This document shows positions 3,181 to 56,660 of a DNA stretch of 64,000 bases, piece after piece (the first letter of the stretch is position 1; each line of letters opens with the position of its first letter). The notes below the pieces were generated by a model. It was not told the DNA's origin. It saw only the letters and a program-made list of their open reading frames with translations, and did not search any database. This DNA is from Bergeyella cardium. Lineage in GTDB: Bacteria; Bacteroidota; Bacteroidia; Flavobacteriales; Weeksellaceae. Location of the stretch: NCBI RefSeq assembly GCF_003614945.1, contig NZ_QYCZ01000001.1:328001-392000 (forward strand), written 5' to 3'. The position numbers and the translations under genes are program-made.

Positions 3181-6027
3181 TTAAAAATTAATATTTACAC
3201 CTAAACTGTAAGTTTTCATTGGTGGAATTTGTAAGTTAACATATCCATTGATTTGTAAATCTGGGTCAAACTTATAGTTTTTATCAAAGTTATAGGTAAA
3301 GATATTATCTCCTAAGATATAAATCTGCATGCCGTTGATTCCTGTTTGTTTTAAAGCATCAGACTTAATGTTATATGCAAGTTTTACAGTTCTTAATCTT
3401 AGATAATCACCTTTGTACAAGTATCTTGAAGAGTGGCTGTTTGCATTTTTATTTCCTCTTCCTAAAATAGGTTTAGGATTGCTTGCATTAGGATTTTCTG
3501 GAGACCAGTAATCTAATTGAGATCTGTATCCTGGATATGTAAGAGTCATAGCACCATCACTTTGGGTAAGTCTTGCAAACTGGTCATATACTTTATTACC
3601 AAATCCAAAACTTAACTGAGCATCAAGGGAGAATCCTTTATAAGATAGTTTAGTATCCACACCACCGAATAATGTTGCAATTGCAGAGCCTTGTACTGCT
3701 TTTTGAGCTTCATTATAGTTTGATGTAGTTTCTCCATCAACACCGTTTTTATACCATAGAGGGTTACCATTAGTTGGGTCTACACCAGCCCATTTTCTCA
3801 TATAGAAAGAGCTTGCAACTTCACCTTCCCTGTGTATTCTTAAGTCATTAATAACAATATCCTGCCCACCATATAGCTTGGTAATTGCATTGTTTAATGT
3901 ACTTACATTACCTCCTAAGTTCCAGTTAAACCCATCACCAGCATTTTTGATGATTTTAGCATCTATGGTAAATTCAAAACCGGTATTTTTCATCTCTCCA
4001 ATATTTTGGTATTGAGATGTAGCACCTTGTGAAGGAGATAATGGAAGTTCAAAGATTAAGTCTTTTGTTAGCTTATGGAAATAAGCAGCGCCAATGCTTA
4101 AGCGATTATTAAATAATCCTAAATCAAGACCTACATTGAAAGGAGAGAGTGTTTCCCATTTCAAATCTTGGTTATCTACTCCTGTTACTCTAGCTCCTGC
4201 CTGGTCATTGTAATTAAAAGTATATTGATACAATGAGTAAGGGCTAACATCTGCCAAGTTACCTACTTTACCATAGGAAGCAGAAAGTTTTAGCTGAGAG
4301 ATAGTATTACTTGACTTAAGAGCTTCTAATCTTGCAAGGTCTAAACCTGCACCTGCTGACCAGAAATATCCTGTTTTTTTACCTGGCCAGAAGTTAGATA
4401 GTTTATCTTGTCTTCCAGAAACATCTAATAAAAATAACTTATCATAGTCATAGTGCAGGGTTGCAGCATATCCTCCTCTTGAAGATATACTTTTTATTCC
4501 GTATGCTTCGCGAGGTACCACAAAGTTATTCATCGTTTCCAAATAAGGAGAACCTACAACATTAGCACTACCACCTACTTTACGGACATCTGATTTATAG
4601 GCTTCTTGGATTAAACTAGCTGAGAAATTATTGCTTTCCCCTAATTTAAAGTTATAGGATAAAATGTTCTGTACATTGAAATTAAAATATCTAGATGAAT
4701 ATGCAAGAACGCTTCCTCCATAATTGTATCCGTTACCGTGTAGGGGAGAACGATAGTTATCCTCTTCTATATTAATGAATTCAGGAGCAAAAACAAATTT
4801 ATATGCTAAGTTCTTAGCCAATTTATAGTCTGCCTGGAAATTAGCAAAAACCCTTGCTGTTTTAGCAGTTTGATATTCTAATTCTTGTAAAGCAGCGACA
4901 TTAAATAAGTTATTGGATAACTTTCCACCCTTTCCAAAATAGTAAGAACCATCTGCATTTCTTACAGGATCTGTTGGTTGCAGATAATACCAGCCTAAGA
5001 GAGGGTTGGAGAATGTAGCCCCATCACTCACAGTATTGATTTTACCATAAGAAAATTGCAAGTCAGTAGATAAATTTAATTTATCTGTAGCTTTATAAGA
5101 TATTTTGTTAGTATTAGTTATACGGTTAAAGCTAGTACCTTTTACAACCCCATTTTGATTAAAATATCCTAATGAGGATAGGTAAGTTAATCTATCGCTA
5201 CCGCCAGAAACAGAAAAATTAAACTTTTGGAAATATGCACCTCCTGTTTTTTCTGTTTCCTTTTGCCAGTTTGTATTTATATGTCTTTTTGCATAAACAG
5301 ATCCTAATCTGTTTGTAGGAGGTATTGTCCCATTTTGTAATGCAGCAAGTACATCTTCTTTTCTTGCATTTACAGTATTGGCATATCCTGCGATGAGCAA
5401 GTCTAACCATTCAGAAGTACTTAGTGGCTCTTCCCCTTTTACAGCTTTAAAAGCTACACCAGTTTCATTACTGAATGAAAATCTTGCATTACCTTTTTTA
5501 CCGGATTTAGTTGTAATGATTATTACCCCTGTACCAGCATCAGCACCATATACAGCAGTAGAGACAGCATCTTTTAATACAGTTACGCTTTCTATATCTG
5601 CTTCGTTAAAGTTTGCTAATATATTAGCTGTTGTTGTGTTTCTAGTAAGGTCTCCTTGTGCTACTCTTACTCCATCTATAATATATATAGGGTTATTTCT
5701 ACCATTAATAGAAGCAATACCTCTAATTCTTAAGTTAGCAGCACCACCGGGTTGTCCGGTATTCATACCTCCTTGTACACCTGCAACTTTACCAGATAGA
5801 GCTTTGTCTATCGATGCTGAAGAGGTATTGGCAACATCTTGTCCTCCAATTTTCCCTACAGAACCCGTAAGTTCTTTTACAGCTCTTTTTTGACCAAAAC
5901 CTACAATGACAAGGTCTTCAATCTTTTTTTCAACAAGAGAGTCTGTCTTCTTTTTCTGTGCGTCTATTGTCTGTATCCCCAAGAAGAAGAGGGCTCCAGC
6001 ACTTAGCACTTTTAATTTTACACTCAT
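3181..6027 (-). CDS. SusC/RagA-family TonB-linked outer-membrane transporter
   Basis: 948 residues, with a signal peptide ending near IDAQ (residue 24). A TonB-box-like segment (EDLVIVGFGQKR, about 37-48) leads into the plug domain, with the RIRGIASING and PIYIIDGVRV signatures of SusC proteins. The beta barrel ends in the aromatic C-terminal strand (YSLGVNINF). The usual N-terminal carboxypeptidase-regulatory-like extension is absent, as is common in Chryseobacterium-type SusC proteins. It would import a substrate captured by the SusD lipoprotein downstream, powered by TonB-ExbBD. Start chosen at the ATG 29 bases after a good promoter. An isolated susCD pair gives no substrate clue. Confidence 0.95.
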   Translation of the reverse strand: MSVKLKVLSAGALFFLGIQTIDAQKKKTDSLVEKKIEDLVIVGFGQKRAVKELTGSVGKIGGQDVANTSSASIDKALSGKVAGVQGGMNTGQPGGAANLRIRGIASINGRNNPIYIIDGVRVAQGDLTRNTTTANILANFNEADIESVTVLKDAVSTAVYGADAGTGVIIITTKSGKKGNARFSFSNETGVAFKAVKGEEPLSTSEWLDLLIAGYANTVNARKEDVLAALQNGTIPPTNRLGSVYAKRHINTNWQKETEKTGGAYFQKFNFSVSGGSDRLTYLSSLGYFNQNGVVKGTSFNRITNTNKISYKATDKLNLSTDLQFSYGKINTVSDGATFSNPLLGWYYLQPTDPVRNADGSYYFGKGGKLSNNLFNVAALQELEYQTAKTARVFANFQADYKLAKNLAYKFVFAPEFINIEEDNYRSPLHGNGYNYGGSVLAYSSRYFNFNVQNILSYNFKLGESNNFSASLIQEAYKSDVRKVGGSANVVGSPYLETMNNFVVPREAYGIKSISSRGGYAATLHYDYDKLFLLDVSGRQDKLSNFWPGKKTGYFWSAGAGLDLARLEALKSSNTISQLKLSASYGKVGNLADVSPYSLYQYTFNYNDQAGARVTGVDNQDLKWETLSPFNVGLDLGLFNNRLSIGAAYFHKLTKDLIFELPLSPSQGATSQYQNIGEMKNTGFEFTIDAKIIKNAGDGFNWNLGGNVSTLNNAITKLYGGQDIVINDLRIHREGEVASSFYMRKWAGVDPTNGNPLWYKNGVDGETTSNYNEAQKAVQGSAIATLFGGVDTKLSYKGFSLDAQLSFGFGNKVYDQFARLTQSDGAMTLTYPGYRSQLDYWSPENPNASNPKPILGRGNKNANSHSSRYLYKGDYLRLRTVKLAYNIKSDALKQTGINGMQIYILGDNIFTYNFDKNYKFDPDLQINGYVNLQIPPMKTYSLGVNINF

Positions 6028-6448: not shown

Positions 6449-8116
6449 ATGGAAAAGTCAAGAGCGAGAGAAACTACAGAAGCGATAGAAAGATTATATG
6501 TCTCTATGAGACATTTGTTTTATAGAGGTTTTTTTAAACCGGCAGGGGTTTCCGGTGAGTCATTAAGAAAGTTACTGATGACCATAGCTCCCGAGATTTA
6601 TGGCTCTATGGGAGTGCCGAATAAGGTAGAGCTCAATGGGCTGCTCTATGTGCTCGACAGGTTGCCGGAAAACATAGAAGAAACACCTTTTGTGCATCTT
6701 ACTTCAGATGAGGGCTTTGAAAAAGGGAGCTTTGAGATTATCGTTCCTAAAAAGCGCAGAAGAAATTGCTACCGTATAGACAAATATCAGATGAATATAG
6801 AGGTCTTGCTCGGCCGTTCGGAGATATATGATATACTTACCCACCTTACCTTCCTTTATATAGAGGCAGATAAAATCCGAGAGCTGGGTTATATTGCAGA
6901 TGAGAACTATCGCCCGTCCAGAACTTGGCAGATTATAGAATCTGTAGCCTTGGGTGAGAAGAAATTCAGCCGTAAGGAGAAGGAAGTAGCCCTTATTCAT
7001 CTCTCATCTCTTTTGGGGAGAACTTTTGATGAAACCCTGAATGCCTACAATAATTTTGGAAGTGATGACAACCCCGACCGCCTCTTCAAGATTATTTATC
7101 ATTTAGGTAAGGCGAGCTTGGAAGACCACTTGGATATCCGCAAGAGGGAGATTCATTTCAGTGCGATTCTTCGTGAGCGAGTGGGGCATCATTTCTTTGG
7201 TGAGAAGTGGGCGCAAAAGGTGAAGAATGTCCTCGTTCAGCACGGTTTAAATAACCGACCTCTACACATTATTTCTGCCAATATGCACTCGGTGAAGAAT
7301 ATGCTCTTTGCCAATACCGCCTTGGGCAAAAAAGCAGGTACAGAGGTAGATTATAGTCTTTATGAGGAAATCAGTAACCAGAAACCTCTTCAGGATAAGA
7401 TTTTAGATTATGCCTTAAAACAAGGGCTTATCTATATAAAAGACGATAGCGGTAGCAATATCGATGTTCAGATTATAGACCTCAGCAAGGTAGATTTAAA
7501 GAATACTCCCTTTGCACATTTCCAGTTTAATGGAGATGATGTAGTCCTCGTCTTTGATTATGCTTTCGGAGAGCAGGCATTTGAGGTGATGGATGAGCTC
7601 CTTCGCCCGTATGAACTGGCTGGTGAGGAGCATATGATGAATATAAAATCTATCTCCATAATGGGTAAGGCGGGCATTTTGGAGGGCAAAAAAGGAGATA
7701 TAATGATTCCTACTGCTCATATTTTTGAAGGTACAGCGGATAATTATCCATTTGAAAACAGCCTGAAGCTCTCAGATTTTGAAGATAAGGACCTTGAGTC
7801 TTTTGAAGGGACGATGATTACCGTACTCGGAACCTCTCTTCAGAATAAGGATATCCTTTCTTATTTTATGAATACCTCTTGGCGGGCTATTGGTCTCGAG
7901 ATGGAGGGCGCTCACTATCAGAAAGCGATTCAAGTGGCATCAAAAATCAGGAAACACATCTCCGAAGACCTCTTCGTTTGCTATGCTTATTATGCGTCTG
8001 ACAATCCATTGGAAACGGGCAGCACCCTCTCCTCTGGTGGTCTTGGGCTCACAGGAGTGAAACCCACTTACCTTATTACCCTTAAAATCTTAGAAAAAAT
8101 CCTTTTTAGGCAGTAG
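6449..8116 (+). CDS. DUF6909-like protein with phosphorylase-fold C-terminus
   Basis: 555 residues, no signal peptide or membrane segment, so cytosolic. The N-terminal two thirds (beginning MEKSRARETTEAIERLY) resembles a Bacteroidota-specific family that I recall as DUF6909. The C-terminal region (about 375-550) looks like the nucleoside phosphorylase/hydrolase fold: SISIMGKAGIL, a segment near IMIPTAHIFEG, and the motif GLEMEGAHY, in which Met-Glu binds the ribose hydroxyls in that superfamily. A role in nucleoside or nucleotide cleavage is an inference; annotation as AMP nucleosidase would be a guess. It is monocistronic, followed by a repeat-rich gap. Confidence 0.6.
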   Translation: MEKSRARETTEAIERLYVSMRHLFYRGFFKPAGVSGESLRKLLMTIAPEIYGSMGVPNKVELNGLLYVLDRLPENIEETPFVHLTSDEGFEKGSFEIIVPKKRRRNCYRIDKYQMNIEVLLGRSEIYDILTHLTFLYIEADKIRELGYIADENYRPSRTWQIIESVALGEKKFSRKEKEVALIHLSSLLGRTFDETLNAYNNFGSDDNPDRLFKIIYHLGKASLEDHLDIRKREIHFSAILRERVGHHFFGEKWAQKVKNVLVQHGLNNRPLHIISANMHSVKNMLFANTALGKKAGTEVDYSLYEEISNQKPLQDKILDYALKQGLIYIKDDSGSNIDVQIIDLSKVDLKNTPFAHFQFNGDDVVLVFDYAFGEQAFEVMDELLRPYELAGEEHMMNIKSISIMGKAGILEGKKGDIMIPTAHIFEGTADNYPFENSLKLSDFEDKDLESFEGTMITVLGTSLQNKDILSYFMNTSWRAIGLEMEGAHYQKAIQVASKIRKHISEDLFVCYAYYASDNPLETGSTLSSGGLGLTGVKPTYLITLKILEKILFRQ

Positions 8117-8248
8117 GCAATAGGCAATAAGCAGTAGGCAATACCTCTGTCATATGACGACACCTTAGTTAGGTAGAACGAACCTCCCGTGCTACGAGTG
8201 CTATTGGCTAAAAGCCAGAAGCTAATAGCTATATTAGTGCCTACTGCC
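8109..8248. repeat. Intergenic repeat with terminal inverted arms
   Basis: GGCAGTAGGCA (8109-8119, overlapping the stop codon of the upstream gene) and its perfect reverse complement TGCCTACTGCC (8238-8248) bracket the gap. GTAGGCAATA-like words repeat three times at 8113-8142, and TGGCT/AGCCA forms a small inner hairpin. Related words occur at 20354 and near 62230. It may be a REP-like element or a Rho-type 3' end. Confidence 0.5.
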
Positions 8249-30872: not shown

Positions 30873-32428
30873 TGAAGCGGTTGTTATTATTAATCTCATT
30901 TCTGTATTTATTTACAGGAGTGGGGAGTAGCTATCTAAAAGCACAACTTAAGGATAGCGATTGGTTTGTAGTGGTGTATGATACGACAATTGATCACCCA
31001 TATACTAATAAATATAGTATTACATTTAAAATGGGTTTTCATAGTGGGAGCTTGAGTGGAGCACCTATAAAATTACAATATCAGCCAGAGGATATACCGG
31101 ATAAATCAGTATGGGAATTTCTACATCCAGTTCCTAATGCGCGACATTTGACTTGTAGTTTTACTAAACCAGGCAAATATAGAGTGAGATTCCCCCCCAA
31201 TATTAAGTATTATTTATCGATGTTAGTTGGTGGTGAAAATTATTATTCAAAAGCAATAAGAATAGAGCAGTGGGGTACAGCAAAGTGGGAAAGATTTAAT
31301 ATATCAGGTGCAGAGAAATTAGAGGTAACAGCTACTGATATGCCTCAATTTGCAAAGGATGCAGACTTAGCAAATATGTTTGAAAACTGTAAATCATTGG
31401 TAGGAAATTCTACTTTCCCACAGTGGGATACTTCTAATGTTAGAGTTATGTATAGAATGTTTGCTGGTGCCAATTCTTTTAATCTGCCTATTGGTAACTG
31501 GAATACCTCTAATGTAAATGTAATGCATTATATGTTTGAAAATGCTACATCCTTTAATCAACCTATTGGGAATTGGGATACTTCTAATGTTACGGATATG
31601 AGAGATATGTTTAGGGGAGCTACATCCTTTAATCAACCTATTGGTAACTGGAATACTTCTAATGTTATGGATATGAGAAGTATGTTTAGAGAAGCTACTT
31701 CCTTTAACCAACCTATTGGGAATTGGGATACATCAAAAGTAAAAGATATCAGAAATATATTTTTTGGGGCTTCTTCTTTTAATCAAAATATTGGGAATTG
31801 GAATATTAGAAGTGTAACAAATTATGATCCTCATATACCTTCATATGATACAAAAGGAATGTTTGAAGGCTCTTATTTATCTGCTTACAATGTAGATAAG
31901 ATTTTGGAAGGCTGGAGTAGATATGCTAATGTGAGAGATTGGCCATCAAATTCTAGGGACTTGGGGTTAAGTAATAAGCACTATTGTAATGATATAGCGA
32001 AATCACGAATGCAATCTATGGGTATTATAATAGCTGCTACTAAGAAATGTGGCTTACCAGGAGAGATGTATCTACAAGAGAGAGAGGGGAGAAATATTTT
32101 TTCAGGCGTAAAAGAAAATGGTGCTTACGAATGGTTAGAAGAATATCAGGATTATTCCTCTGTATCTGGTGCTCCGACTATTTTAGGAGAAATGCAATAT
32201 GCATCAGCTAAAGGAGTGCTTGTTGCGTCTAAGGATAGAAGAGGTTCAGGAAATACAAAAGTCTATTCCTTGGTAAATGAACCTTATGGTTCGGCTAATA
32301 TAGAAACTCTGCCAAAATCTAAAGTTATCAATGGTACTCCTCATGAGATAGGTACTTTAGTATATAATCCAGACACAGGAAACTTTTATGAAGGTACAGA
32401 TAAAGGTTGGGAGAGGATAGATAATTAA
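30872..32428 (+). CDS. BspA-type (DUF285) repeat surface protein, module A partner
   Basis: 518 residues with a signal peptide (about 1-25). The N-terminal region (about 30-170) is beta-rich. Five 25-residue repeats of the BspA/DUF285 leucine-rich type (W-D/N-TSNV..M..MF..ATSFNQPIGN) occupy about 185-310. A C-terminal domain (about 395-518) ends GTLVYNPDTGNFYEGTDKGWERIDN, similar to the central segment of the S74 proteins. The family includes adhesins of Tannerella and protist surface proteins. Translationally coupled to the S74 gene by a one-base overlap. No type IX sorting domain; export beyond the periplasm is therefore uncertain. Confidence 0.85.
   Translation: MKRLLLLISFLYLFTGVGSSYLKAQLKDSDWFVVVYDTTIDHPYTNKYSITFKMGFHSGSLSGAPIKLQYQPEDIPDKSVWEFLHPVPNARHLTCSFTKPGKYRVRFPPNIKYYLSMLVGGENYYSKAIRIEQWGTAKWERFNISGAEKLEVTATDMPQFAKDADLANMFENCKSLVGNSTFPQWDTSNVRVMYRMFAGANSFNLPIGNWNTSNVNVMHYMFENATSFNQPIGNWDTSNVTDMRDMFRGATSFNQPIGNWNTSNVMDMRSMFREATSFNQPIGNWDTSKVKDIRNIFFGASSFNQNIGNWNIRSVTNYDPHIPSYDTKGMFEGSYLSAYNVDKILEGWSRYANVRDWPSNSRDLGLSNKHYCNDIAKSRMQSMGIIIAATKKCGLPGEMYLQEREGRNIFSGVKENGAYEWLEEYQDYSSVSGAPTILGEMQYASAKGVLVASKDRRGSGNTKVYSLVNEPYGSANIETLPKSKVINGTPHEIGTLVYNPDTGNFYEGTDKGWERIDN
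31424..31798 (+). repeat. Five tandem 75-bp coding repeats
   Basis: In-frame repeats encode the BspA-type units. Units 2-4 are close at DNA level, including synonymous positions, which suggests recent duplication or gene conversion. Confidence 0.85.
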
Positions 32429-39687: not shown

Positions 39688-39703
39688 CTGCCGTGCTACG
39701 GCT
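39688..39703. repeat. Dispersed 16-bp hairpin element, copy 2
   Basis: GCCGT-GCT-ACGGC with flanks identical (in reverse complement) to 12172-12187. It directly precedes the 42-bp array. Confidence 0.6.
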
Positions 39704-39930
39704 CACTAATTAGTGAAAGCTCGTTTTTATTTATTTTCTATCTTTCACTAATTAGTGGAAGCCCGTTTTTGTTCATTTTCTGCTATTCACTAATTAGTGG
39801 AAGCCCGTTTTTGTTCATTTTCTCCTTTTCACTAATTAGTGGAAGCTCGTTTTTGTTCATTTTCTACCTTTAACTAATTAGTGGAAGCAAAAAATTTTTT
39901 TTCCATTCACTAAATAGTGAAGGGAATTTT
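39704..39930. repeat. Intergenic array of six units, 42-bp period, palindromic
   Basis: Units begin at 39704, 39746, 39788, 39830, 39872 and 39908 (the last step is 36). Each starts with CACTAATTAGTG, a perfect 12-bp palindrome (unit 5 begins AACT; unit 6 has AA in the centre and stays symmetrical). Then come GAAGCYCGTTTTT and a T-rich stretch; only the last six or so bases vary. The spacers are conserved, so it is not CRISPR. The rest of the gap to 40022 is AT-rich with no gene. Confidence 0.9.
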
Positions 39931-48891: not shown

Positions 48892-49407
48892 TTAATCCTT
48901 TATATATACCAGTTCGTTTTGTGAGTTTGAGTTTTCATCGCTGAGAATTTCTGCTGTTTTCAGCTTATCGAGGAGTATGGGAATAAAGAAATTCATCTCA
49001 AAGAATTGTCGGTGTATTCCATTGAGCATTTCTGTGAAGATATCCATTCCCACCTTGTTATTATGCAGGTCCATTTGCTTTTCGAGGGGGAGGTTAGGGA
49101 AGAGTTCTTCGTGTGTATCTGTCATCTTTTTGCACCAGCTGAGGGCTTTGCGTGGGGAGGAGATTTTACAGCAGTACATCAGAATGGTGCAGCACCAGAG
49201 TGCGTGCCTAAAGGCATTCCCTTTTCCGCTCTTATTGTGAGTATTGGGGAAGTATTTTTGGGTTTGATGAATCGTTCTCATCGTAGCATAGAAGCTAAGA
49301 GCCGAGAATAAAGGATGCCTGAGCAAAAGCCCAATAACCCGCATCATCTTAGGAAAGCTAAGGGATTTTAAGGCATTAAGTAAGGTGTTGAGATGAGCTA
49401 ATATCAT
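48892..49407 (-). CDS. DUF6973-like protein
   Basis: 171 residues without a clear signal peptide; one moderately hydrophobic stretch near 22-42. It has the pattern GKGNAFRHALWCCTI (about 61-75) and, 40 residues later, MDLHNNKVGMDI, which I associate with the DUF6973 family. The conserved His, Arg, Asp and Asn suggest an enzyme-like or metal-binding site, but no activity is known to me. Its ATG overlaps the stop of the preceding gene (TAATG), so it is translationally coupled to the carboxypeptidase-regulatory-like protein. Confidence 0.65.
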   Translation of the reverse strand: MILAHLNTLLNALKSLSFPKMMRVIGLLLRHPLFSALSFYATMRTIHQTQKYFPNTHNKSGKGNAFRHALWCCTILMYCCKISSPRKALSWCKKMTDTHEELFPNLPLEKQMDLHNNKVGMDIFTEMLNGIHRQFFEMNFFIPILLDKLKTAEILSDENSNSQNELVYIKD

Positions 49408-50204
49408 TATCCTTTTGAGTTTTCTAAGCTCATTATTTTAGAATTTTGAAGCCGTTTCAGGTAGATGGGCTGATATTTTTCTATGTAGATGGCGATGCTT
49501 TCCAAGTTTTTACTCTCTATATAATGAGCGATATTGTCCGATGAATAGATAAATTGAAGGAAATTATCAATCATATTTACTGGGATTTTCAGCCTTGTGA
49601 AGTACTCGTCTCCGAAGTATTTTCTCACAGCGCTAATGTTTCTCGTCATTTTCTCATATTCGTGCAACCGCTCTTTTTTCTTCTGTTCTCCCGAGATAAG
49701 GTCGTAGATTGCATTCAGGTTGAGCGATAGCCCACCGCCTGCAAAGGCTAATGGATCTGAAGTTTGTTCTCCGCTTAGTTTAGGCTCTGGCAGCCCGATT
49801 ACCTTTCGTACTTCTAAGGTCTTTTCAGCTGCTTTTAGTTTCGCTACATCAGCGTGGAGGTTTCCTGTGGGTTTGAAGCGAATCACCACTTCTGGGATTT
49901 CTATATACGCTCGTTTCAGTTCTATAAAATTGTGGCTATTGTTGAGCATTTCCTGAGATACGCTAATATCTTTCCTCTCGGAGATAATGGAGGTAAATCT
50001 CACCTTATCACCTGCTTTTACACTGAGGCTAAATTCGCCATTGTAGTTTGTGAGTACTGTTTTGTGGGTGCTCAGATTGGTTACATAGATATGGTTGAGG
50101 AACACCTGTGCGTCTTCTTTCATAAAGACTTGTCCTCTGAATACCTGTGCGCCCAGTCTTATCTGAGCTATAACTACGATAAAAACAAAAATAAACCGCG
50201 CCAT
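49407..50204 (-). CDS. Secreted protein with carboxypeptidase-regulatory-like domain
   Basis: 265 residues from ATG 50204 (MARFIFVFIVVIAQIRLGAQ signal peptide). A longer frame upstream passes through the -7 promoter box, so it is rejected. Residues about 24-100 form a CarboxypepD_reg-like beta-sandwich (VFRGQVFMKEDAQVFLNHIYVTN, TNYNGEFSLSVKAGDKVRFTSI). The rest is helical and charged. Similar flavobacterial proteins are periplasmic or outer-membrane associated and of unknown role. Coupled to the DUF6973-like gene. Confidence 0.75.
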   Translation of the reverse strand: MARFIFVFIVVIAQIRLGAQVFRGQVFMKEDAQVFLNHIYVTNLSTHKTVLTNYNGEFSLSVKAGDKVRFTSIISERKDISVSQEMLNNSHNFIELKRAYIEIPEVVIRFKPTGNLHADVAKLKAAEKTLEVRKVIGLPEPKLSGEQTSDPLAFAGGGLSLNLNAIYDLISGEQKKKERLHEYEKMTRNISAVRKYFGDEYFTRLKIPVNMIDNFLQFIYSSDNIAHYIESKNLESIAIYIEKYQPIYLKRLQNSKIMSLENSKG

Positions 50205-50212
50205 TTGCCCTG

Positions 50213-50220
50213 CAAAAATA
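50213..50220 (-). promoter_or_regulatory. -7 box of the two-gene set
   Basis: TATTTTTG on the minus strand, only 8 bases before the ATG, implying a very short or nearly leaderless mRNA. Confidence 0.6.
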
Positions 50221-50388
50221 CTCGTTTCTCTTTCCCATCCGTCTATTTTCACAAACTTTAACTAAGAGATAGAAAATAAGGTTTTATGGATAATATCTGT
50301 TTTTAGTTTGTAGGGAGGTAGCTCCAGCTAAATAAAAAGTCGCGATTATCATTTTAGCAAAAATCTTACTGTTTTTTATCAATTTTTA

Positions 50389-50547
50389 GGTTCTTAACCT
50401 AAATTTTCTGGTTCCTAACCACAAAAAAGGAGTTCTGAACCGGAAAAAAGTGGTCTCAGACTATAAAAAAGGAGTTCTGAACCACAAAAAAGTGGTCTCA
50501 GACCACAAAAAAGGGGGCTTTGACCCTCTCTGACCCTCTCTGACCCC
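50389..50547. repeat. Intergenic array of seven palindromic units, 21-bp period
   Basis: 11-base imperfect palindromes begin at 50389, 50410, 50431, 50452, 50473, 50494 and 50515, exactly 21 bp apart. Cores: GGTTCTTAACC, GGTTCCTAACC, AGTTCTGAACC, GGTCTCAGACT, AGTTCTGAACC, GGTCTCAGACC, GGGCTTTGACC. Units 2-6 are followed by an A-run spacer. After unit 7, GACCCTCTCT repeats at 10-bp steps. 50221-50388 shows nothing else. Confidence 0.9.
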
Positions 50548-50577
50548 AAAAAAAATCCTGAAACATTTGTTTCAGGA
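50548..50577 (-). terminator. Terminator of the OmpA-like gene
   Basis: TCCTGAAACA/TGTTTCAGGA with a 2-base loop; eight T follow on the minus strand. Confidence 0.9.
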
Positions 50578-50600: not shown

Positions 50601-51437
50601 TTATTTCTTCACGGGAGCTATGTTCATTAGCTTCATAAATTCATCCAGTTTTGGCATTATGATGATTTCTGTTCTACGGTTTTCGGCTCTGCCAGAAACG
50701 GATGCGTTGGTCGTTTTAGGGTTAAACTCTCCTCGTCCGCCAGCGGTAATTCTGTTAGGATTTACGCCGAACTGAGTTTGAAGAATCTTCGCTACGGAGG
50801 TTGCCCTTAGTGCGGAGAGCTCCCAGTTGTCTTTCGGTACATTGGAGGAGTTGAGCGGTGTGTTGTCGGTATTTCCTTCAATCAATACGCTGTAAGTATC
50901 ATAGTCGTTGATTACCCTTGCTACTTTGCCGAGTACTTCTTGTGCTGCTGGGAGTACATCATATTTGCCCACTTGGTAGAGCATTTTGTCGGAGAGGGAA
51001 ATCATTACCACGCCTTTCAGTACTTTTACTTCTACATCTTTGTCGGCTACATTGTCCAGTGTTCGTTTCAGTTTGTTAGACAGTGCGAGATTTAAACTGT
51101 CGTTCCTCGAATTGGATGCGATGAGCTGTTTGATGTACGCGTTAGATGCGTTGATTTCTCCCACCAGCTTGTCGATATTCGCGGAGGACTTCCCAGTGTT
51201 GGAAAGGCAGGCATCGAGTGAAGATTTAAGGGCTTCATTTTGGCTTTTCAGCAGGCTGTTCTCACTTGCGAGCCCAGCATTCTGCCCCCTAAGCTCCTGA
51301 ATTTCTCTTTGTCTTTCGGCGAGGTTTTCAAGGCTTTGCTTGTAGTTTTGGTTAAGGCTGTCGTACTGCTTTTTGCTCACGCAGCTCATTAACCCCAGTG
51401 CCATTACCCCAATGGCTAAGAATTTCATTACTTTCAT
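50601..51437 (-). CDS. OmpA-family peptidoglycan-binding lipoprotein
   Basis: 278 residues. Lipobox LMSC (about residue 19) after MKVMKFLAIGVMALG; a second ATG three codons in is also possible. Residues about 25-130 form a coiled coil. The OmpA C-terminal domain (about 140-265) has VLIEGNTDNTP, NWELSALRATSVAKIL and NRITAGGRGEFNP...RAENRRTEIIIMP, which bind diaminopimelate in peptidoglycan. It likely ties the outer membrane to the cell wall, similar to Pal or the flavobacterial OmpA/MotB proteins. Monocistronic. Confidence 0.9.
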   Translation of the reverse strand: MKVMKFLAIGVMALGLMSCVSKKQYDSLNQNYKQSLENLAERQREIQELRGQNAGLASENSLLKSQNEALKSSLDACLSNTGKSSANIDKLVGEINASNAYIKQLIASNSRNDSLNLALSNKLKRTLDNVADKDVEVKVLKGVVMISLSDKMLYQVGKYDVLPAAQEVLGKVARVINDYDTYSVLIEGNTDNTPLNSSNVPKDNWELSALRATSVAKILQTQFGVNPNRITAGGRGEFNPKTTNASVSGRAENRRTEIIIMPKLDEFMKLMNIAPVKK

Positions 51438-56084: not shown

Positions 56085-56395
56085 GAAATAGAGGAAGAAA
56101 TGCGTGATTCTTGTCAATATTTTTCTCATTGAAGGAAGAAACGCGTGAATCTTGTCAATATTTTTTTCATTGGAGGAAAATTCGCGTGAATCTTGCCAAT
56201 ATTTTTTTCATCGGAGGAAGAAACGCGTGAATCTTGCTAATATTTTTCTCATCGGAAGAAAATTCGTGTGAATCTTGTCAATATTTTTCTCATCGGAGGA
56301 AAATTCGCGTGAATCTTGTCAATATTTTTCTCATCGGAGGAAAATTCGCATGTTTCTAGCTCCAACCAAGTTTCATTGGAAGAAGAAACGCTGTT
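56085..56395. repeat. Intergenic array, 41-bp period, seven units
   Basis: The core GCGTGAATCTTGTCAATA starts at 56102, 56143, 56184, 56225, 56266, 56307 and (diverged) 56348, each 41 bp apart. Units alternate between AAACGCGTGAATC and AATTCGCGTGAATC; the latter contains ATTC-GCGT-GAAT. 41 is not a multiple of three, so it is not coding. Confidence 0.85.
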
Positions 56396-56409: not shown

Positions 56410-56660
56410 AGCCCACTTGCGTGGGGAGCACTTAGAAATAATTGCCTCACCGGCTACGGTGTAATTGAATGCCACGCGAGTGGATAAGTCCTTCAGCTGG
56501 AAGCTGTGAATGCCATGCGAGTGGATAAGTCCCTCAGCTGGAAGCTGTGAATGCCATGCGAGTGGATAAGTCCCTCAGCTGGAAGCTGTGTCTGCCACGC
56601 GAGTGGATAAGTCCCTTAGCTGGAAGCTATGCTTGCCACGCGAGTGGCTGCCTCTTTACT
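56410..56660. repeat. Intergenic array, 41-bp period, five units with two hairpins each
   Basis: Units start at 56471, 56512, 56553, 56594 and 56635, 41 bp apart. Each has CCAC-GCGA-GTGG (units 2 and 3: CCAT, still pairing by T-G) and CAGCT-GGA-AGCTG. In unit 4 both ends of the second hairpin change together to TAGCT...AGCTA. A related hairpin CCCAC-TTGC-GTGGG lies at 56412. Confidence 0.85.

Follow-up and report, generated by a model that had tools for sequence, protein, structure and literature searches.

The window, as we call the whole stretch of 64,000 nt analysed here, contains an array of dyad-symmetric units situated between two genes on the minus strand (Table 1). Following the plus strand, an AT-rich leader is succeeded by the seven units, which start at positions 50389, 50410, 50431, 50452, 50473, 50494, and 50515, so that each step is exactly 21 bp. 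The array then runs into a terminal 10-bp repeat and meets the terminator hairpin of the OmpA-domain gene, which can be seen in the sequence at 50556-50577. Both the 10-bp continuation and this hairpin had been pointed out in the initial annotation, which was made from the sequence alone, and both are present.

Table 1. Features of the array and its surroundings; here and in the text, coordinates given without a locus name are positions within the 64,000-nt window.
Feature	Coordinates	Strand	Basis
Seven 11-bp dyad units GGTYNNNRACC, 10-bp spacers, 21-bp steps	50389..50525	.	pattern and chain scan
42-bp dimer, 2.3 copies, with A6 spacers (units 3-6)	50418..50514	.	repeat analysis
Terminal 10-bp repeat TGACCCTCTC, 2.6 copies, includes a degenerate eighth unit	50521..50546	.	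repeat analysis
Leader ATTATCATTTTAGCAAAAA-N8-TTTTTTATCAATTTTTA, AT-rich inverted repeat, arms TTRATAAAAAA / TTTTTTATCAA	50345..50388	+	nine-copy comparison
Terminator hairpin TCCTGAAACATTTGTTTCAGGA, T8 on the minus strand, between OmpA-domain gene and array	50548..50577	-	sequence and folds
Flanking gene, OmpA-domain lipoprotein (context only)	50601..51437	-	PF00691, E 1.2e-17
Flanking gene, weak CarboxypepD_reg-like match (context only)	49407..50252	-	PF13715, E 5.5e-5, under curated cut-off

The chain of seven units at 21-bp steps is not due to chance. A scan for GGTYNNNRACC-like chains with exact 21-bp steps gave these seven units as the maximum, the longest chain elsewhere in the window and the longest one in 20 first-order Markov copies of the window consisting of two. 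A motif-free scan, which required at least three of the four arm pairs to match, again returned seven units, as compared to 3-5 in the Markov copies. The annotation had spoken of seven 11-base palindromes: their number and spacing hold, but all four arm pairs match perfectly in units 1, 2, and 6 only, whereas units 3, 4, 5, and 7 contain one mismatch each. The A-runs noted behind the units exist as well; when compared with other arrays, the A6 spacers are peculiar to the window copy. A 42-bp dimer, present in two copies that are 89% alike, makes up units 3-6. Consequently, the changes of the arms, which had been read as co-variation, represent two alternating unit types and not independent compensatory changes.

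Both strands of the array fold better than shuffled sequences (z-scores of -4.3 and -5.1), and the minus strand from 50506 to 50492 scores as an intrinsic terminator, this being the one unit that qualifies with a GC-rich hairpin plus U-run. These values would agree with a series of back-up terminators, in which several minus-strand units form short hairpins followed by U6 and stop read-through from the OmpA-domain gene. That gene has a terminator of its own, however, and the other copies of the array described below lack A6 spacers and are oriented inconsistently to their neighbouring genes, two of them lying between divergent genes. We therefore regard this explanation as very unlikely; terminator activity may at most be a local by-product of the window copy. 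An Rfam search of the array yielded two chance-level matches and nothing above the gathering score, and no match or relative was found in plasmid and phage collections or viral contigs.

A BLAST search against the home genome (G000), from which the window originates, hit ten places, which pattern searches resolved into nine elements. Each element consists of a leader with the consensus TTTTAATAAAAAAA-N7-TTTTTTATCAA, followed by YTTTTA and the 21-bp units, whose number varies among the arrays; the sequence GGGTCTCTGACCC closes most of the other copies, and the end of the window copy is similar. All nine copies are intergenic. They occur in either orientation, and the genes around them may be tandem, convergent, or divergent; one copy lies beside the tmRNA. 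For these nine copies, the orientation along the chromosome or relative to the replication strand follows no simple pattern. A pattern search of the home genome found no leader without an array; two matches of the leader pattern in Lachnospiraceae were dismissed, as they are coding-like chance matches without arrays. In the leader, both arms are conserved, and the 7-8 nt in the middle vary among the copies save for a few bases (CACACTG, TCATACT, TAGGCTA, TCCTGTA, TACGCTG and others).

This arrangement of conserved arms around a variable middle resembles the crossover region of a recombinase site. One may thus regard the whole as a non-autonomous element similar to a MITE, in which a transposase or recombinase would act on the leader inverted repeat and the array would be a mere passenger. 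The dispersal of nine intergenic copies in either orientation, the common leader, and the lack of lone leaders are in line with this idea. On the other hand, no transposase could be tied to the element. It has a conserved leader and a common last unit; an IS partner or a terminal inverted repeat across the whole element was not identified, and neither a target duplication nor an empty site was established in the genomes searched, among which the genus is represented by the home genome alone. Moreover, the arrays of other genomes lack the leader, and this explanation accounts for the dispersal within one genome but not for the phylum-wide link to a gene family that is reported below. As an alternative to the interpretation given at the end it is unlikely, although the two are not exclusive.

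The closest known element is BrickBuilt, a minisatellite-MITE of Porphyromonas gingivalis, in which tandem imperfect repeats of variable number stand beside a conserved leader in about 10-20 dispersed intergenic copies (PMC4596501). The window element is similar in style: it belongs to the same phylum, combines a leader with tandem repeats of variable number, and occurs dispersed in several, always intergenic copies. The differences concern the period, the leader, the symmetry of the unit, and the range. BrickBuilt has a 23-nt repeat without spacers, IS5-like terminal inverted repeats, and a tail segment, and is confined to P. gingivalis and P. gulae (PMC4596501), whereas the window element has a dyad-symmetric unit of 21 bp, which is not reported for BrickBuilt, another leader, and relatives linked to one gene family throughout the phylum. 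A second dispersed element of P. gingivalis, MITEPgRS/MITE464, contains 41-nt tandem repeats (PMC4596501); it shares with the window element the dispersal and a repeat length fitting helical turns, but has a different period, and a link to the gene family is not reported there. Arrays of comparable length are also found in the window itself. At 39703-39888, an intergenic 42-bp array (four helical turns) comprises 4.4 copies, which are about 90% alike and contain the palindrome CACTAATTAGTG in each unit; at 56091-56391 and 56466-56647, two different adjoining intergenic arrays, both with a period of 41 bp, lie downstream of a DsbD-like gene (compare MITEPgRS). REP elements have a length of 20-40 bp and tagged ends (PMC3733652). 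Like REP and BIME sequences, the arrays are clusters of short extragenic palindromes often located at gene 3' ends; unlike REPs, their units are very short, keep a strict 21-bp phase, and vary in sequence between arrays.

Stretches of a 7-bp repeat occur outside the leader in seven copies, and this repeat is common elsewhere in the home genome. Its degenerate form WGCYANN has 135 forward and 116 reverse four-unit matches in G000 if at most two mismatches are allowed, as opposed to 0 for the reversed control. Such arrays are present, for example, at 8107-8143 of the window and in loci L043 and L046, often just outside the leader of a 21-bp element. Heptamer arrays (TAACTGA) are known from some Bacteroidetes (PMC4679880). 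The relation 7 x 3 = 21 between the heptamer and the 21-bp element may be a coincidence.

Arrays with strict 21-bp spacing were also found in related genomes, which the initial annotation had proposed to search for such arrays. With one mismatch allowed, a two-unit pattern gave, for example, 40, 18, 10, and 8 matches in scattered genera of the family, and the reversed pattern 0-2 in these genomes; the exact two-unit pattern was present in 8 of 14 selected genomes (control: 0). We read 20 of these loci. Their arrays comprise 4-22 strictly spaced units, the spacers differ, and none of these arrays has the leader of the home genome. Eleven of the 20 immediately follow, on the 3' side, genes that encode one uncharacterised protein, which we named A1. 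It consists of about 165 residues and is acidic, with a pI of 4.8-5.6. No convincing match was found in Pfam, NCBIfam, PHROGs, or the PDB; in particular, A1 matches no toxin family of Pfam or NCBIfam and no Rep or Par family. Weak matches are PADLOC Avs1c (E 2.8e-4) and Pfam NIT (E 0.006, below the cut-off). A1 is present in 57 of 148 genomes of the family and, in a wider search, in 22 of 296 genomes of the phylum.

In order to quantify the linkage, we determined for 400 bp on either side of 50 A1 genes the lag (8-40) of the best self-match. The best lag was 21 in 40 of the 50 3' flanks, but only in 3 of the 50 5' flanks (Fisher p 1e-14); among the ten remaining 3' flanks, four had a best lag of 22. 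At least four GGTYNNNRACC units were found in 26 of the 50 3' flanks and in none of the 5' flanks. In 79 other intergenic regions of the fetched loci, the best lag (8-60) was never 21 (Fisher p 3e-24). Note that the A1 alignment was seeded from genes beside arrays, that genes were called simply as open reading frames, and that all these counts are not independent, because many loci are orthologues. A held-out set was taken from the wider search; its loci belong mainly to other Bacteroidota families and had not been used in forming the idea. Here, the lag was 21 in 14 of 23 3' flanks as compared to 2 of 23 5' flanks (Fisher p 4e-4), the 21-bp signal lying on the 5' side in loci L124 and L126. 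No neighbouring gene is shared between the A1 loci. In 28 of 42 cases, a terminator-like hairpin separates the A1 gene from the array, the median gap being 64 bp. We found no paper describing this linkage; as most subscription journals were outside the search, this is no proof of novelty.

The arrays differ widely in sequence. Nevertheless, 35 of 42 arrays proved to have a dyad-symmetric 21-bp unit in a column-permutation test (pooled Fisher chi-square 391, 84 degrees of freedom). On average, the self-match amounts to 0.60 at lag 21 and to 0.57 at lag 42, whereas it drops to 0.35-0.36 at lags 20 and 22 and to about 0.24 elsewhere; units of the same array frequently have no more than about 60% of their bases in common. 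The selection on phase and dyad symmetry that the initial annotation had deduced from a single array is supported by these symmetric units and by the recurrence of the period behind A1 genes throughout the phylum. Its argument for the arms is not: in 381 units of 52 arrays, compensatory changes between the arms of a unit do not exceed chance, the four arm pairs giving z-scores of -1.8 to 0.7 within arrays. A co-variation signal at pair 4/8 (z 4.3) appears in the home genome only and is explained by the two unit lineages existing there. In addition, pairing on one axis (0.475) is no better than pairing with the arm of another unit (0.481). As there is neither co-variation of the arms nor an excess of pairing on the own axis, the symmetry belongs to the array consensus and not to base-paired hairpins. 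It is as expected for half-sites that would be read by a symmetric dimer.

RNA hairpins, which had been considered as one possible role of the palindromes, are accordingly not favoured; the position of most arrays behind a terminator-like hairpin points in the same direction. A specific variant would be an array of RNA antitoxins or regulatory RNAs comparable to type III toxin-antitoxin systems, in which a repeat array and a small protein are separated by a terminator, with the repeats located upstream of the toxin gene (PMC5086642). The A1 loci likewise combine a protein of about 165 residues, a tandem array, and a terminator in between, and A1 copies reside in variable regions beside ParDE-like genes. 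A further hint of an RNA role is the excess of G.T pairs on the A1 sense strand, where the raw pooled counts are 508 G.T versus 302 A.C pairs (26 versus 15 arrays). In contrast to type III systems, however, the array follows the gene, and its units diverge to the extent given above and show no pairing constraint; together with the missing match of A1 to toxin families, this renders the variant highly improbable.

The fate of individual arrays could best be tracked in genus g26, where one A1 locus contains the array in eight species. An alignment of these eight orthologous arrays spans 168 columns and has no gap at a mean identity of 81%, and conservation depends on the position within the unit (p 0.0034), being strongest at AA, TTT, and GGT. 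Free drift of the period, which had been named beforehand as an argument against selection on phased palindromes, is therefore absent in these eight species: individual arms do change, but the period stays constant. In G132 and G144 the gene is gone, and the array persists together with the old terminator at the orthologous locus; A1 is truncated in G127, and both gene and array are absent from G085. The locus is variable in this genus (L107, L149, L150, L153), where ParDE-like genes and a 374-aa or a 178-aa protein replace or flank A1. We also considered a coding repeat, since 21 bp correspond to seven codons and some frames are open across arrays. It was rejected because the units of the home genome carry stops and because conservation in the orthologues follows unit phase and not codon position, as worked out by hand from the phase values of AA, TTT, and GGT.

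These data also bear on a rival explanation, namely that mutation alone created a minisatellite. Slippage, hairpin-guided template switching, and unequal exchange would generate and homogenise palindromic 21-bp repeats, which would then be functionless passengers of a mobile element or a gene. Several features would fit such processes: besides the copied 42-bp dimer of the window array, the variable number of units, and a dispersal like that of BrickBuilt (PMC4596501), units 1-3 of the L040 copy (5580-5632; G000:C1:708579-708631) constitute a 53-bp perfect inverted repeat with 25-bp arms and a 3-bp centre, which looks like the product of template switching at a palindrome. What mutation leaves unexplained is the position behind one gene family, the maintenance of 21 bp across families with unrelated sequences, and the gapless, phase-dependent conservation of the orthologues. 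We consider this explanation doubtful.

Our preferred interpretation, which we advance tentatively and at somewhat less than even probability, is that the window array is one of nine gene-less copies of a gene-plus-array cassette occurring throughout the Bacteroidota, and that the array represents a lattice of dyad sites bound by a homodimer. Behind A1 genes, and mostly past a terminator, the dyad-symmetric sites would follow each other at two helical turns, and gene, terminator, and array would evolve together. The array would act as double-stranded DNA: a homodimer of A1, or of a partner that changes its specificity along with the cassette, would fill the sites side by side on one face, while unit exchange would keep the sites of one array alike. 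The idea of a dimeric protein on one face of the DNA, already put forward in the initial annotation, fits the array. In the home genome, a derivative consisting of leader and array would have spread to intergenic places, leaving out the gene. This is the likeliest history of the window copy, which has no A1 neighbour but agrees in its 21-bp period, its dyad unit, and the motif GGTYNNNRACC with A1-linked arrays of other genera. The A1 gene of the home genome is located about 1.0 Mb from the window copy, and its array has another motif, for which dyad symmetry is not significant.

Iterons and plasmid centromere arrays consist of direct repeats that are spaced by whole helical turns and recognised by the product of a neighbouring gene. 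The A1 loci resemble them in the spacing and in the adjoining gene, A1 being the putative reader; unlike them, A1 arrays are chromosomal, occur several times per genome, and lie 3' of the gene past a terminator. It is possible, though short of probable, that we are dealing with a so far undescribed, phylum-wide two-part cassette, in which an acidic protein reads its own array and both co-evolve. The sequence of the array would then drift as a whole, and recognition by the protein or its complex would hold spacing and symmetry constant. Motif similarity rises with the identity of the A1 proteins (rho 0.51, 860 pairs). For paralogues from different loci of one genome, 64-73% A1 identity corresponds to an array similarity of 0.78-0.80, and 51% identity to 0.46. 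This correlation, however, also follows from plain co-inheritance. Further observations speak against our preferred interpretation: A1, being acidic and without a convincing database match, does not look like a DNA binder; arrays exist without the gene, both in G132 and G144 and in the home genome, where most arrays lack A1; the array of the home A1 gene deviates as described above; and ten of the 50 A1 genes show a best lag other than 21.

Bacterial repeats are normally recognised by their shared sequence, whereas here period and mirror symmetry are conserved and the sequence is free to change, the arrays being linked to a single, unstudied gene family. As the motif changes between families, similarity searches would miss such elements there. 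If A1 reads the array, it would form a new kind of protein-DNA lattice, whose natural variation could yield a recognition rule; if it does not, the arrays would provide a strong test case for the keeping of helical phase in tandem repeats.

A repeat of a different kind is found at 31424-31805 of the window: it has a period of 75 bp, lies within coding sequence, and its units, such as WDTSNVKDM..MF.GATSFNQPIG, resemble BspA-like repeats.
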